From assembly GCA_001788795.1 (NCBI GenBank), contig MFXH01000018.1, positions 1-64,000 on the forward strand: a stretch of 64,000 nucleotides of DNA, written 5' to 3'. The position numbers and the translations under genes were made by a program. Origin of the DNA: Candidatus Peregrinibacteria bacterium RIFOXYA2_FULL_41_18. GTDB taxonomy: Bacteria > Patescibacteriota > Gracilibacteria > UBA1369 > UBA12470. Positions 37,833 to 48,012 of this stretch are shown here, piece after piece (position 1 is the stretch's first letter; each line of letters opens with the position of its first letter). The notes under the pieces were generated by a model, which worked only from the letters and a program-made list of their open reading frames with translations, ran no database searches and had not been told where the DNA came from.

Positions 37833-38870
37833 ATGAAAAGCAAATTCGCAATTGTCGTTTTGTCGATAATCTTTATAGGAATGGCTGTTTATATAATCAA
37901 GGATCGAAATCCAACCCCAATAGTTGATACCGAAATTGAGACGACTGAACTTTTATATCTAACGACCATGACTCATCTGGAAGAAGGTTGGGATACGGCT
38001 GCGAGTAACGAATTTTATTTCAATAGTATTGCGGAAAAATTGCGATACGGGATGGATATTGCCGAGCAGTATGATGCCATTCTAACGCTTGAGAGCGCAT
38101 TACCATTTGCGCAAGGATGTGTGAATTTCGATGATAATGTATTGATGGAAGCCGTTGAAAGAGGTCATGGCGTTGGCACTCATGTTGATTTAGCTGCGAA
38201 AAAAGAGATGCCAATGGCTGAAGCCGTTTCTTATACAAGTGAACGTAAAGAGGCTGTGGATAATTTGGTTGGTTCGGAAAACAACCTAGGATGTTCTGGG
38301 GTTGGTGGAAAAACAGATTGGTACTCTGTCGCAAAAGGAGCAGGATGTTCATATATGGATGGAACCGTTGCAGCACATTATCTTGCAATGTCGCTCGATA
38401 ATAGACCGGAAGGATGGACTGATGAAACGATCATTAGTGATTTTTTTCATTATCCGGCCCCTGTTGGAGACTCTCGGTTTTATCCTTTTTGGATAGACAG
38501 TTCTGAGGATTTCGTTGAAGACTCTGATGGCGATATTCTTCTTAGTTCGGGAGAAACTTTTGATATATCGAGATGGGAAGAGATTGGAGGTCGTAATAAT
38601 ACGCCTGTTGATTGTGGCGAAGACGACTGTCCGTTTACAAATGCTGATATTGAAGCACTCGTTGACGATATTACAGAGCTTGCCGATGATCGCGATACAT
38701 CGAGAATCGCAAAATACAATCTTTACATACCGGCGAGATTATTCGTATCTGAAAATGAAGAGGTTCTCGAGTTATTATTTTCAGAAATGCAAAAACTTCA
38801 AGATACCGGCGTATTAGAATGGGCTTCGCAAAAAAGCGTTTATGAGGCGATGGTTGAGGAGAGAAAATGA
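37833..38870 (+). CDS. Membrane-anchored polysaccharide-deacetylase-like protein
   Basis: 345 residues. A membrane anchor (residues 5-23) precedes an extracytoplasmic domain. The order TMTHLEEGW, AILTLESALPFA and RGHGVGTHVDLA resembles the barrel and the His-containing motif of carbohydrate esterase 4/glycosidase-deacetylase folds, where an Asp and two His bind metal; the match is partial, so catalysis is uncertain. A later region has Cys pairs (CGEDDCPF). Diverges from the NIF3-like gene. Could act on wall or capsule polysaccharide (inference). Confidence 0.6.
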   Translation: MKSKFAIVVLSIIFIGMAVYIIKDRNPTPIVDTEIETTELLYLTTMTHLEEGWDTAASNEFYFNSIAEKLRYGMDIAEQYDAILTLESALPFAQGCVNFDDNVLMEAVERGHGVGTHVDLAAKKEMPMAEAVSYTSERKEAVDNLVGSENNLGCSGVGGKTDWYSVAKGAGCSYMDGTVAAHYLAMSLDNRPEGWTDETIISDFFHYPAPVGDSRFYPFWIDSSEDFVEDSDGDILLSSGETFDISRWEEIGGRNNTPVDCGEDDCPFTNADIEALVDDITELADDRDTSRIAKYNLYIPARLFVSENEEVLELLFSEMQKLQDTGVLEWASQKSVYEAMVEERK

Positions 38871-42720: not shown

Positions 42721-44037
<1,317 letters not shown>

Positions 44038-44054
44038 GGAGAGCAGACAGCAGA

Positions 44055-44936
44055 TTATTCAAACAAATCCGTACTCAAATATTTCTCACCTCTGTCCGGC
44101 GAAATTATTACGATAATTCCTTTATCAAGTTTCTTTGCGACTTCGCGCGCACCCCAGAGCGATGCACCTGAACTCACCCCTACGAGAAGTCCGTTTGTTT
44201 TCGCAACTTCACGCGCCATCGCCACCGCATCGGCACGCATGATATTTAATTTTTCATCAATAAAAGACATGTCGAATATGCTTGGCGGACTGGGCTCATT
44301 CATGTTTCTGAGCCCATCCACTCTTTGACCAAGAACAGGTTCGATTCCAATAATTTTAATCGCAGGATTATGTTTTCTCAGCACGGTACTTACACCTCTA
44401 AGCGTTCCGAACGTTCCCATGCCGGCAACAAAATGTGTTACAGTCGGCATCTGTTTGAGTATCTCTTCGGCTGTTGTCGTTATATGCGCCATCGGATTTT
44501 CTAACGTGTTGTGCTGATTGGACAGCCAGTATTTTTCAGGGTTGGCAGCGAGCATTGTTCTAGCCTCTTCTATTGCACCTCCGGTTCCTTTTTCCGCAGG
44601 AGTCAAAATCAATTCCGCTCCGTAAGTTCTTAATATCTTCTTGCGTTCTTCGCTCATGCTAGCAGGCATCGTAAGAGCTATCTTGTAACCTTTTACGGCG
44701 GCTATCATTGCCAATGCTATCCCCGTGTTTCCACTTGTTGATTCAAGTATTGTTTTCTCATGAGTTAAATCTCCTGATTTTTCCGCTTCTTCTATCATGC
44801 GAAGCGCAATTCTGTCTTTTACAGAACCTCCTATGTTTTGGCCTTCAAGTTTGGCGTAAATTTTTACATTCGGGTTTTCTGTTATACCTTTGATTTCTAC
44901 GATTGGAGTGTTGCCGATGAGTGATAATATGTTTGT
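44055..44936 (-). CDS. cysK: Cysteine synthase (PLP-dependent, CysK family)
   Basis: About 293 residues, ATG at 44939 overlapping the serK-like stop. PLP Lys in NIGGSVKDRIALRMIEEAE (about 42), ESTSGNTGIALAM substrate loop (about 67), GMGTFGTLRGVS phosphate loop (about 170) and GVSSGASLWGA. It makes cysteine from sulfide and an activated serine. Classic CysK uses O-acetylserine; with a SerK-like kinase translationally coupled upstream and no cysE in view, O-phosphoserine is a plausible substrate here (inference). It lies behind a cysteine-codon attenuator and converges with eno. Confidence 0.94.
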   Translation of the reverse strand, partial: TNILSLIGNTPIVEIKGITENPNVKIYAKLEGQNIGGSVKDRIALRMIEEAEKSGDLTHEKTILESTSGNTGIALAMIAAVKGYKIALTMPASMSEERKKILRTYGAELILTPAEKGTGGAIEEARTMLAANPEKYWLSNQHNTLENPMAHITTTAEEILKQMPTVTHFVAGMGTFGTLRGVSTVLRKHNPAIKIIGIEPVLGQRVDGLRNMNEPSPPSIFDMSFIDEKLNIMRADAVAMAREVAKTNGLLVGVSSGASLWGAREVAKKLDKGIIVIISPDRGEKYLSTDLFE

Positions 44937-45349
44937 CATTGTAATTTGGATAAATGGATATTAATTGTTGGAACGACGCACGCTATCGGAGATTTTTCTT
45001 TTCCCCAGACGTGCTTGGTTGTTTTACATGGAAGTAATCGACAGGCTTTGCCAGATTTGATCACTAGTTCTTTTGAAACAGGGATGTCTTCACGGAAAGG
45101 CAGAACCGAAATGTTTTCATCAAAAATGTCCAATTCCACAACCGGAATTTTTTTTATTCCAAGTATTTTCGCTATATTCCATCTGTGGTGTCCATCGAGA
45201 ATTATCTTGTGGTTCACATCAATGACAATCGGCTTACGCCATGTCTGATCTTTTTTCATAAGATCCAAGAGCTCGCTTAGATGATTCGGATCTATTTCTT
45301 CATGAGGCATAACCGATGAGACTTCTATGTATTTAACTGTGTAGTTCAT
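44936..45349 (-). CDS. SerK/ParB-like free serine kinase (predicted)
   Basis: 137 residues from ATG 45349; the longer TTG frame would start inside the terminator and is rejected. The fold is the ParB/sulfiredoxin-like domain: EVSSVMPHEEIDPNHLSELL, PIVIDVNHKIILDGHHRWNI, LGIKKIPVVELDIF. In archaeal SerK and staphylococcal SbnI this family phosphorylates free serine; the PHEE Glu and DGHHRW block correspond to functional residues of those enzymes. The four-base overlap with cysK supports a role in making O-phosphoserine for cysteine synthesis. Standing as a DNA-binding ParB is unlikely. C-terminal third is Cys-containing and unassigned. Confidence 0.75.
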   Translation of the reverse strand: MNYTVKYIEVSSVMPHEEIDPNHLSELLDLMKKDQTWRKPIVIDVNHKIILDGHHRWNIAKILGIKKIPVVELDIFDENISVLPFREDIPVSKELVIKSGKACRLLPCKTTKHVWGKEKSPIACVVPTINIHLSKLQ

Positions 45350-45364
45350 AAGGATTTTAATATT

Positions 45365-45396
45365 AAAAAAATACCGCCTCTGCAAGCAGGGCGGTA
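45365..45396 (-). terminator. Attenuator terminator upstream of serK-cysK
   Basis: Minus strand TACCGCC-CTGC-TT-GCAG-A-GGCGGTA followed by seven T (45371-45365): eleven base pairs with one bulged A. Its 5' arm contains CGCCCTGC (45393-45386), complementary over eight bases to GCAGGGCG (45433-45426) inside the leader-peptide ORF, so an antiterminator can form instead. Confidence 0.9.
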
Positions 45397-45419
45397 AAAA
45401 AGTTTATTTATGACACAAA

Positions 45420-45485
45420 TCAATACGCCCTGCAGTGATTGCAAGGACAGCAACAAGCCAAAGCTATTTGATTCGTGGTTTTCAT
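45420..45485 (-). CDS. Cysteine-rich leader peptide of the serK-cysK attenuator
   Basis: A 21-residue ORF, ATG 45485 to TGA 45420, ending ALACCCPCNHCRAY: five Cys codons in nine positions. It starts 16 bases after the 86-residue gene and lies 24 bases before an intrinsic terminator. Segment 1 CCTTGCA (45446-45440) can pair with segment 2 TGCAGG (45434-45429). Segment 2, as GCAGGGCG, can instead pair with the terminator's 5' arm. A ribosome stalled on Cys codons for lack of charged tRNA-Cys would cover segment 1, free segment 2 and prevent termination. This is the logic of trp and his attenuation applied to cysteine. Confidence 0.8.
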   Translation of the reverse strand: MKTTNQIALACCCPCNHCRAY

Positions 45486-45493
45486 ACGAGGCT

Positions 45494-45522
45494 CTTATAT
45501 ATTAATTAGCCTGTGATTGCAA
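45494..45522 (-). promoter_or_regulatory. Possible promoter of the leader peptide
   Basis: Minus strand TTGCAA (45522-45517), 17-base spacer, TATAAG (45499-45494), ending eight bases before the leader ATG. If used, the leader peptide would be almost leaderless. The -35 lies inside the end of the 86-residue gene. Confidence 0.5.
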
Positions 45523-45762
45523 GGCTGAATCCATTCTCGCTCCCGCTTTACCGACAAGCTGAGCAACCGTTTCGTCACCTTGAACTTCATCATAAACACC
45601 TTGTGCCTCACTAAGAGTTGTTAAGTTTGTCAGTCCAACCGAATCGCCTCCCATTTCATCATCTCTGCTTGCCACTACATGATGAGATGTCTCCCCGCTA
45701 ATCTCAACGACTTCTAATTTTACGACTCCATCAGCAACCGGTTTTTCTCCTAGTGTGTTCAT
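45502..45762 (-). CDS. Small protein of unknown function after the cysteine desulfidase gene
   Basis: 86 residues, acidic, no Cys and no membrane segment (VVKLEVVEISGETSHHVVAS, LTTLSEAQGVYDEVQGDETV). Starts ten bases after the desulfidase stop, so very probably co-transcribed with it, and precedes the attenuator. No family recognised. TTAAACAATAAAAC precedes the ATG. Confidence 0.75.
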   Translation of the reverse strand: MNTLGEKPVADGVVKLEVVEISGETSHHVVASRDDEMGGDSVGLTNLTTLSEAQGVYDEVQGDETVAQLVGKAGARMDSALQSQAN

Positions 45763-45772
45763 GTTTTATTGT

Positions 45773-47200
45773 TTAATTTATAGAAGAAACTCTAACTAAT
45801 TTGTCTACCGAAGCTGCAGCACAAAATCTTTCTGCAAGATTTACCGCTATCGCACCAAGAATCACCTCGTCCGCCTCTCTCATACCAATTGTAACAAATC
45901 GACCTAAATTCTGAATTGTTTCTTCCGGAGTATGCCCAACAAGACCTTGTCTCCTTAGCTCATATTCCGGGCTGTAAACTGCCGCAATTGCCGCTTGAAT
46001 TGCTGTTTCAACCGACACACCAACTTTTAATGCGCAAGATCCTTTTGCACCATCGCACGTCATACCCGAAATTGCTCCTGCGACATAATCTATCGCTCGT
46101 CCTATCACCTCTGGAGATTTATCATGCATGTAAGCGATTGCCGCAGCCGCACCAAGTCCTGCCGCAACGGAACATCCGCATACCGGAGCCAATTTGCCTG
46201 TGAAAACTTTTGCGTAAGCGTTTATCAGATGAGATAGAGCTACAGCCTCTTCTATTATCCGATCATCAATTCCTCTCTCTTTCCCATAAAGATATGGAAC
46301 CAACGCGGCTACAAATCCTTGATTACCACTTCCGCCGCTGCTCATCGCCGGCAATGGTATTCCGTTCATACGTGCATCAGCCGCTGCTACGGCGCCCATT
46401 TTTACCCTAGCGGCAATGCAATTGGCAAAAACACCATTATCAATTCCCGTACGCAATGTTCCTGCCGCTTGAAGGCCTAATCCCTCTCTCATAACACGCT
46501 GATTCATTTCAAATCCTTCTCTAAGATATGCCCTATCCTCTTCATCTACTGAACCGGCCATCGCTATAAGATCTGAAATCTTGCAAGCTCTTAATATTTC
46601 TTCGTAACTTTTTGGACCTGTAACCGCATCTTTTTTGGTTCCAATTGACGAATCGCTTGCAAAGGTATCGCCATTTAGCCTTTTAGATACGACATTCGTA
46701 TGACCTCCTTGTAAAACCACTTCGGCTCGTCTTCCATCATTCATTTCCACTTCTATTTTTACAAGAAAATCCCTATCTTCGCTTTTAGCAACTTTAACCT
46801 TGTTTTTTGCGCCAATAGCCTGAGCAACACCTTCATCTGTTACACCCGATAAACTCTGTAGAACTTTCGAAGGTTCTCCTTGTATGAAACCAAGTGCCGC
46901 AGCTATAGCAAGACCTTTTCCGTTTTTTACTCCGGGAATCGCCACTCCGGCTGCATTTTTCAAAGTTCCCGGATCCACAGTAACCAAAATCTGCTTCAGA
47001 TCATCCAAAGATGGCCTCTCCCCGTCAATCGTAAGCATATCCGCAACTATCGATGCCGCATAAGCAACCGCTCCCGGCTCTGTGCATCCGAGCGCCGGCT
47101 GAACCTCATGCGCAACAACTTGTTTGTATAAACCTTCACGTTGTGTCGGATCAACCTCTAAATCAATATCCAATACTGGTGCGTCTTCATCAGGTGACAT
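45773..47200 (-). CDS. L-cysteine desulfidase (UPF0597 / CyuA-CdsB family)
   Basis: 475 residues. It is predicted to split L-cysteine into sulfide, ammonia and pyruvate using an oxygen-sensitive [4Fe-4S] cluster. Family features: HEVQPALGCTEPGAVAYAAS near residue 30, VDPGTLKNAAGVAIPG, SSGGSGNQGFVAALVP, the Cys-bearing LAPVCGCSVAAGLGAAAAI and TCDGAKGSCALKVGVSVETA. Related iron-sulfur serine dehydratases share the fold, so serine as substrate is possible. It sits upstream of the cysteine biosynthetic pair but is separated from it by the attenuator, so breakdown and synthesis can be regulated apart. Confidence 0.92.
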   Translation of the reverse strand: MSPDEDAPVLDIDLEVDPTQREGLYKQVVAHEVQPALGCTEPGAVAYAASIVADMLTIDGERPSLDDLKQILVTVDPGTLKNAAGVAIPGVKNGKGLAIAAALGFIQGEPSKVLQSLSGVTDEGVAQAIGAKNKVKVAKSEDRDFLVKIEVEMNDGRRAEVVLQGGHTNVVSKRLNGDTFASDSSIGTKKDAVTGPKSYEEILRACKISDLIAMAGSVDEEDRAYLREGFEMNQRVMREGLGLQAAGTLRTGIDNGVFANCIAARVKMGAVAAADARMNGIPLPAMSSGGSGNQGFVAALVPYLYGKERGIDDRIIEEAVALSHLINAYAKVFTGKLAPVCGCSVAAGLGAAAAIAYMHDKSPEVIGRAIDYVAGAISGMTCDGAKGSCALKVGVSVETAIQAAIAAVYSPEYELRRQGLVGHTPEETIQNLGRFVTIGMREADEVILGAIAVNLAERFCAAASVDKLVRVSSIN

Positions 47201-47223
47201 ATTTGATTTTGATTAAGGGATTA

Positions 47224-47252
47224 TTTATCCCACGCCTCCCATGCTTATGCAA
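47224..47252 (-). promoter_or_regulatory. Possible promoter of the desulfidase operon
   Basis: Minus strand TTGCAT (47252-47247), 17-base spacer, GATAAA (47229-47224). Both boxes are imperfect. Confidence 0.4.
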
Positions 47253-47282
47253 GGCTTTTGACACAGGAATCAATCAATATAC

Positions 47283-47311
47283 TTGCGCGAGCCGCAAATG
47301 TGTTTTATAGT
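47283..47311 (+). promoter_or_regulatory. Promoter of the 47335-48012 gene pair
   Basis: TTGCGC (47283-47288), 17-base spacer, TATAGT (47306-47311), 23 bases before the ATG. Confidence 0.5.
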
Positions 47312-47334
47312 TAGGCACCTTTAAGTTAAAAATT

Positions 47335-47712
47335 ATGCCTGAAAGCCAATCAAGTCAGCCAATATCTGTCGTAGAGGGCAATATGAGAAGATTCATACCT
47401 GATGACAGGTATGCAGATAAGGATCTGGCTATATCTTTATTCCTAGACCTTGATGCATTATTGCAACCCCTATATACAGGTCAAGTTACTGTATTCCCCT
47501 CTGAATCTTCTGAAAATGAAAAAAACTCCGAACAGCTATTTGAAGAGGCTGTATGCTTGATAAGTAAAATGATTACAGATTTAAAAATACTGGAAGGGGA
47601 CGATACGTTATTTGCCGGATTTGAATCCGATATTGCAATGTGCGGACATTATGCGTCTCAGGCTTTGTACTATGCTCTTTTCAGATTTGCAAAAATTAAT
47701 AAAAATAATTAA
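47335..47712 (+). CDS. Hypothetical small acidic protein
   Basis: 125 residues, helical, with no signal or membrane segment (AISLFLDLDALLQPLYTGQV, NSEQLFEEAVCLISKMITDL). No family recognised. Six bases separate it from the next gene, with which it likely forms a two-gene operon. Its pre-start sequence TTTAAGTTAAAAATT is A-rich without a Shine-Dalgarno. Confidence 0.72.
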   Translation: MPESQSSQPISVVEGNMRRFIPDDRYADKDLAISLFLDLDALLQPLYTGQVTVFPSESSENEKNSEQLFEEAVCLISKMITDLKILEGDDTLFAGFESDIAMCGHYASQALYYALFRFAKINKNN

Positions 47713-47718
47713 TAAACC

Positions 47719-48012
47719 ATGTCAGAAACTCCATCTCTTTATCCAGATTCCGTAATCAAACCAATAACATTTGACTATCTTGTAGCTAGAAATATTACAG
47801 CTGCGGACATTATGGATGCTCTTCTGATTTTAAATGTTCGGGAATTGCTAATGGATTTAGAGGAGTGTGTTTTTAGACTTGAGTTCATAGCAACGGACTG
47901 TGAAGAGACTCCCTCTGGCACCTATTTGGTTATAGATGATGCTTGCGGACATTCCTCTCCTGTAAAAATACCAATTGATATTATACCGAATGGTAACGCT
48001 TTAAGTATTTAG
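47719..48012 (+). CDS. Hypothetical small protein
   Basis: 97 residues, acidic (IKPITFDYLVARNITAADIM, LMDLEECVFRLEFIATDCEE). No recognised domain. Second gene of a pair; followed by the repeat-rich gap that precedes RNase P RNA on the other strand. No terminator of note after it other than the repeat hairpins. Confidence 0.7.
   Translation: MSETPSLYPDSVIKPITFDYLVARNITAADIMDALLILNVRELLMDLEECVFRLEFIATDCEETPSGTYLVIDDACGHSSPVKIPIDIIPNGNALSI

Follow-up and report, generated by a model that had tools for sequence, protein, structure and literature searches.

The serK-cysK locus

The window, by which we mean the whole stretch of 64,000 nucleotides analysed here, carries on its minus strand a serK-like gene followed by a cysteine synthase gene, cysK, and upstream of both a short Cys-rich leader ORF and an intrinsic terminator (Table 1). 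The start of cysK overlaps the stop of serK by 4 nt. The best NCBIfam match of the serK-like gene is SerK (E 5e-15); it covers the N-terminal domain only and lies below the curated cut-off, as does the Pfam ParB_N match, and the SerK function of this gene is suggested by that N-terminal domain. Together, the two enzymes would convert serine to cysteine by way of O-phosphoserine. No serine acetyltransferase scores above its family cut-off in the genome, where weak family matches exist, which fits a serine-kinase route. The genes of the window read TGA as stop. Just upstream of the leader and on the same strand is a gene for a 475-aa SDH_alpha-domain protein (45773-47200, minus), of the serine dehydratase alpha or possibly the L-cysteine desulfidase type, so that a Cys- or Ser-degrading gene may neighbour the Cys-making operon. 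Between this gene and the leader is an 86-aa ORF (45502-45762, minus) for which no Pfam or NCBIfam match was found, and the promoter-like sequence of the leader overlaps its 3' end.

Table 1. Features of the serK-cysK locus, in window positions
Feature	Positions	Strand	Remarks
-35-like hexamer TTGCAA	45517..45522	-	17-nt spacer to -10 box
-10-like hexamer TATAAG	45494..45499	-	8 nt upstream of leader ATG
Leader ORF MKTTNQIALACCCPCNHCRAY*	45420..45485	-	21 codons; ATG 45485-45483, TGA 45422-45420
Regulatory Cys codons in tandem, TGT TGC TGT	45447..45455	-	window sequence, comparison across loci
Segment 1 as first proposed, CCTTGCA	45440..45446	-	pairing with TGCAGG not above shuffles
Segment 2, antiterminator 5' arm GCAGGGCG	45426..45433	-	starts 22 nt after first Cys codon
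Segment 3 CGCCCTGC	45386..45393	-	antiterminator 3' arm and part of terminator 5' arm
Intrinsic terminator hairpin TACCGCCCTGCTTGCAGAGGCGGTA	45372..45396	-	-14.6 kcal/mol
Segment 4, terminator 3' arm GGCGGTA	45372..45378	-	window sequence, fold
Terminator U tract T7	45365..45371	-	window sequence
serK-like gene, 137 aa	44936..45349	-	ParB_N/ADP-dependent L-serine kinase N-terminal domain, DGHHR motif
cysK/cysM-type cysteine synthase, 294 aa	44055..44939	-	TIGR01136 above curated cut-off

The Cys-rich ORF and the other named elements are located on the minus strand where the original prediction had placed them. The predicted peptide contains CCC within its 21 codons and is followed by a cysteine synthase gene, the tandem codons thus specifying the amino acid of the operon; two further Cys codons are found 3' of the TGT TGC TGT run. 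The promoter-like sequence immediately before the ORF, TTGCAA-N17-TATAAG, scores higher than 97% of shuffled sequences. Judging from the position of the -10-like box, the 5' UTR would be some 0-3 nt long, so that the leader transcript is probably leaderless, with a putative transcription start at or next to the ATG. Comparable -10 boxes, 5-9 nt before the leader start, were scored at six related loci described below (L009, L029, L033, L034, L042 and L066), and similarly placed boxes were read by eye at L010 and L049, the latter with a GTG start. This placement suggests leaderless transcripts across several leaders. The missing Shine-Dalgarno (SD) motif was rejected as a further argument: SD-like motifs occur at chance level in the window (3/47 versus 2.8 in shuffled sequence), and their absence is therefore no evidence for leaderless starts.

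T-boxes control Cys genes in Firmicutes, and a T-box or another ligand-binding RNA might govern this operon as well. An Rfam scan of positions 44000-48000 returned no family at gathering score, and hence no covariance-model match that would assign the leader to the T-box riboswitches; the two sub-threshold matches (E 0.012 and 0.32, about half of the respective cut-offs) belong to unrelated sRNA families. We give this explanation practically no weight. A nucleotide search of the leader region against its own genome recovered only the self-match and one match of 30 bases.

Alternative folds of the leader

The terminator begins 23 nt past the leader stop codon, and the serK start at 45349 follows 22 nt past the hairpin and 15 nt past the T tract. 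The original prediction described an eleven-base-pair stem followed by seven T. The T tract is as described, but the fold has 7+3 bp, that is, ten pairs with one bulged A. A terminator of equal quality was obtained in 0/60 shuffles of the intergenic stretch of the window. The predicted pairing of segments 2 and 3 (2:3) was recovered exactly, as a helix of 8 bp between GCAGGGCG and CGCCCTGC. The duplex has an energy of -18.1 kcal/mol versus a mean of -8.4 kcal/mol in shuffled sequences (z -4.7, p ~0.002), and the 2:3 antiterminator and the 3:4 terminator are mutually exclusive. The proposed pairing of CCTTGCA with TGCAGG (1:2) does exist, with a bulged T, but is no better than in shuffled sequences (p 0.26). 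In the minimum-energy fold, segment 2 is hidden by pairing of GCTTTG (ORF nt 22-27) with CAGGGC (nt 54-59); this pairing lies in a long leader hairpin that ORF nt 9-18 closes with bases around and just past the stop codon. The 129-nt leader as a whole is much more structured than its shuffled versions (z -4.5, 0/200).

The leader was folded by partition function after removal of the part that the ribosome would cover, an equilibrium model that ignores co-transcriptional kinetics. With the ribosome stalled on the first Cys codon of the window leader, the terminator probability is 0.26, and on the third it is 0.06. The probability rises to 0.97 when the ribosome is at the stop codon and is likewise 0.97 without a ribosome. 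The spacing between the first Cys codon and the 2:3 helix and the contrast of 0.26 versus 0.97 are those expected of a trp/his-type attenuator.

Cys-run leaders across cysK loci of Patescibacteria

To compare relatives of the locus, cysK loci were gathered with CysK as query; with SerK, only two good matches were obtained within the order and nothing usable in genome contigs and viral contigs. Neither serK nor cysK had a match in two genomes of the same family that were searched, indicating that cysK is patchily distributed. Some genomes of the class have numerous TGA codons within cysK that interrupt it, presumably a mark of Patescibacteria in which TGA is recoded (Gracilibacteria and their relatives).

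A Cys-run short ORF precedes cysK or serK-cysK in 16 of the 30 cysK loci of the class, when leaders are chosen by Cys content and position, with L012 (only CC) and L029 accepted by inspection. From the end of these leaders to the first gene, the distance is 67-99 nt. Three more were found elsewhere in Patescibacteria (L134, L135 and L066). About half of the cysK loci of the class are without a Cys leader, including the serK-cysK locus L030. Under one strict automated criterion, a Cys-run ORF is found in 13/30 loci of the class and 1/12 loci of a further set from the phylum, versus 2/78 loci of other phyla and 0.8% (about 1%) of shuffled sequences; two Patescibacteria of the control set, L053 (no leader) and L066 (leader present), are not counted among the 78. 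As for the two ORFs outside Patescibacteria, one is without a terminator, the other is 200 nt upstream and its hairpin is poor, and their attenuator architecture is not convincing.

The terminator is tied to the leader, being present in 16/16 leader loci versus 1/12 loci without a Cys leader (Fisher p 6e-7). The leader peptides, by contrast, are mostly not conserved apart from the Cys run. The original prediction had proposed aligning related genomes for conserved Cys codons and for covariation in the three pairings. In these relatives, the Cys run, 2:3 and 3:4 are kept with entirely different nucleotides, and their recurrence argues for the attenuator interpretation. For 1:2, there is a modest signal when all loci are combined (p 2e-4), the segment 1 first named in the window itself being weakly supported. 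The nearest serK-cysK relative, L029, with a CysK 72% identical, keeps the leader, the terminator and a 2:3 helix (7 bp) in different letters.

We scored the 2:3 pairing between the stretch from the Cys codons to the terminator and the 5' arm of the terminator against 1000 dinucleotide shuffles; since the tested stretch excludes the 3' arm of the terminator, the outcome does not depend on the terminator itself. The pairing is significant (p<0.05) in 16/20 leaders, with a combined p of 2.9e-17 when the window and a Trp case described below are left out. The helices are of 6-11 bp in nearly all leaders and have unrelated sequences, such as AGAGGTCGTT (L009), ATTCCGAGA (L010), GGGGCTTAAA (L014) and CGGGAGGTT (L066). 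One compensatory change (A-T to G-C) is seen in the helix when the related loci L010 and L011 are compared. Three leaders are individually marginal (L029, L042 and L135, p 0.06-0.08), and L045 (1315-1497) has a CCCC leader and a terminator-like hairpin without 2:3 pairing, so that its arrangement has either decayed or is of another kind. L046 has a terminator without a leader. Loci of these two kinds, which retain a terminator but have lost the Cys run or the 2:3 pairing, are the pattern that would speak against the original prediction; they are rare, since loci without a Cys leader are almost always without a terminator.

The geometry is similarly maintained. The 2:3 helix starts a median of 22 nt after the first Cys codon (21-24 nt in 11/20 leaders), and the terminator starts 19-29 nt past the stop codon in most leaders. 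The footprint of a ribosome usually extends ~15 nt from the A site. With this footprint and the median spacing, the helix would remain free whichever of three successive Cys codons the ribosome stalls on. The contrast in terminator probability between a stall and the stop codon is clear in 17/20 leaders; in L036 and L134, the 2:3 pairing is present and the fold model predicts little switching. L010, L011 and L048 have a second Cys cluster past segment 2 (CLCSC, CLCS and CCCC, respectively), and stalling there could place the ribosome over segment 2.

These comparisons bear on the simplest alternative, that the terminator merely ends transcription of the 86-aa ORF and the SDH_alpha gene and that the Cys-rich ORF is there by chance. 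The upstream genes are indeed co-directional, ending 16 nt before the leader ATG, and TGYTGYTGY occurs 165 times genome-wide with frame ignored, the pattern being uninformative by itself. However, Cys-run leaders are placed like that of the window, with equal spacing, in 18 other Patescibacteria loci that have different upstream genes. The association of terminator and leader, the combined 2:3 signal and the promoter-like sequence immediately before the leader likewise make a chance reading frame highly improbable.

Proposed mechanism and known attenuators

We consider it highly likely, judging from sequence and predicted folds, that the window element is a ribosome-mediated, trp/his-type Cys attenuator of transcription that responds to charged tRNA-Cys. 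The Cys-rich ORF would be the switch, and serK-cysK is very probably transcribed only under cysteine shortage. From the elements, geometry, recurrence and predicted switching described above, we infer ribosome stalling and a resulting change in expression as follows. The short transcript would begin at the leader ATG or right beside it, and its translation would follow at once. When Cys-tRNA is sufficient, the ribosome would reach the stop codon and cover segment 2, segments 3 and 4 would form the terminator and RNA polymerase would stop near 45365. Under a shortage of Cys-tRNA, the ribosome would stall on the three Cys codons with its leading edge just short of segment 2. The free segment 2 could then pair with segment 3, blocking the terminator, and serK and cysK would be transcribed. 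Without translation, the leader hairpin would hide segment 2, making the terminator the default.

Classical ribosome-mediated attenuators are those of the enterobacterial trp and his operons (PMC1183508). The window element has in common with them a leader ORF, tandem regulatory codons, exclusive 2:3 and 3:4 hairpins and, as proposed here, antitermination upon stalling. Unlike them, it is predicted to sense Cys, precedes serK-cysK, belongs to Patescibacteria and is probably leaderless, with no SD usage detected. A closer counterpart is uORFC-8-2 upstream of cysS in Rhodobacterales, which the pertinent part of the source presents as a predicted tandem-Cys ORF followed by an intrinsic terminator and as a sensor of charged tRNA-Cys (PMC8632094). 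As far as that part goes, the two have in common the short tandem-Cys ORF, the intrinsic terminator that follows it and charged tRNA-Cys as the predicted signal. They differ in that uORFC-8-2 precedes a gene for cysteinyl-tRNA synthetase, occurs in another phylum and has its own conserved motif; a test of 2:3 pairing is not described in the portion of the source dealing with it (PMC8632094). The window element, which precedes serK-cysK rather than cysS, is not a member of uORFC-8-2 and works alike.

With the mycobacterial poly-Cys ORFs, the window element has in common a poly-Cys short ORF before Cys genes; like them, it is predicted to respond to Cys, and it is probably leaderless. Poly-Cys leaderless short ORFs of mycobacteria were reportedly described by Canestrari et al. 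in 2020, a study to which PMC9094748 and PMC13236596 refer. The parts of the literature devoted to these ORFs present them as Cys-responsive (PMC4633059, PMC13236596) and, in one case, as a matter of translation attenuation (PMC13236596). The common poly-Cys and probably leaderless design raises the possibility of a similar arrangement here, in which stalling would alter how accessible the downstream start codon is, control being exerted at a point other than termination. Yet an intrinsic terminator with a U tract, together with an exclusive antiterminator, is found in nearly every leader locus, so that the window element is not of the mycobacterial type, which is without a conserved terminator (PMC1262725); and the chance level of SD-like motifs in the window gives no sign of an SD to mask. 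Translational control of this kind is very unlikely. Cys leader peptides with Cys-codon runs before cys/cbs genes have also been predicted in the actinobacteria Mycobacterium, P. acnes and B. longum; no terminator hairpins were found there and Rho was suggested by the authors (PMC1262725), whereas the window element has an intrinsic terminator.

The mechanism is thus not new, nor is the window element the first Cys transcription attenuator to be proposed, because Cys-codon attenuators are already known or predicted in mycobacteria and upstream of cysS in Rhodobacterales. What is probably new is a widespread set of such candidates in Patescibacteria, placed to control cysteine synthesis and probably leaderless. 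We found no ribosome-mediated attenuator described in Patescibacteria in the open-access literature, which is not proof of priority.

Trp and His counterparts

The original prediction supposed that the logic had evolved in the genome of the window. This logic is found repeatedly within the class and also elsewhere in the Patescibacteria, and versions for other amino acids are present in the class. At L005 (1363-1488), a Trp leader, MASQNQILNWWQNLFWRE, and a terminator precede a serK-like gene adjoining trpB (2:3 p 0.01). Trp-run leaders followed by a terminator were found in 3/30 trpE-family loci (L163, L169 and L182) and His-run leaders followed by a terminator in 3/30 hisG loci (L197, L204 and L208), versus 0/300 shuffles in either case. 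The 2:3 pairing is significant in three of these six leaders, with a combined p of 2e-4; the samples are small, and L182 and L208 are weak.

The Trp and His versions are informative regarding what is sensed. Cys-rich peptides can in principle bind metal or respond to redox, and a Cys-rich nascent arrest peptide could sense metal, redox state or free cysteine rather than Cys-tRNA charging. However, the peptides are mostly unconserved outside the Cys run, the helix lies at a fixed distance from the Cys codons, and the Trp and His versions precede trp and his genes, which fits tRNA charging. Sensing by an arrest peptide is extremely improbable.

In a broader reading, which covers Cys (cysK, serK-cysK), Trp (trpE, serK-trpB) and His (hisG), largely leaderless ribosome-mediated attenuation would be a general control of the few amino-acid pathways retained by Patescibacteria, the sequence drifting while the geometry stays fixed; we regard the chances of this as evenly balanced. 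Gene regulation in Patescibacteria is little studied because few of them can be grown. In the leaders described here, both the input, Cys-tRNA charging, and the output, cysteine synthase, can be read from the sequence, offering a testable handle on nutrient sensing. Such leaders would mark which amino acids the reduced cells make on demand, and they suggest close coupling of transcription and translation. Being short and self-contained, the elements can be tested in ordinary laboratory bacteria.

A scan of the entire window for attenuators gave two further weak candidates, chance-like in character, at 38291 (plus) and 18902 (minus), where short WW ORFs and terminator-like hairpins precede longer ORFs.
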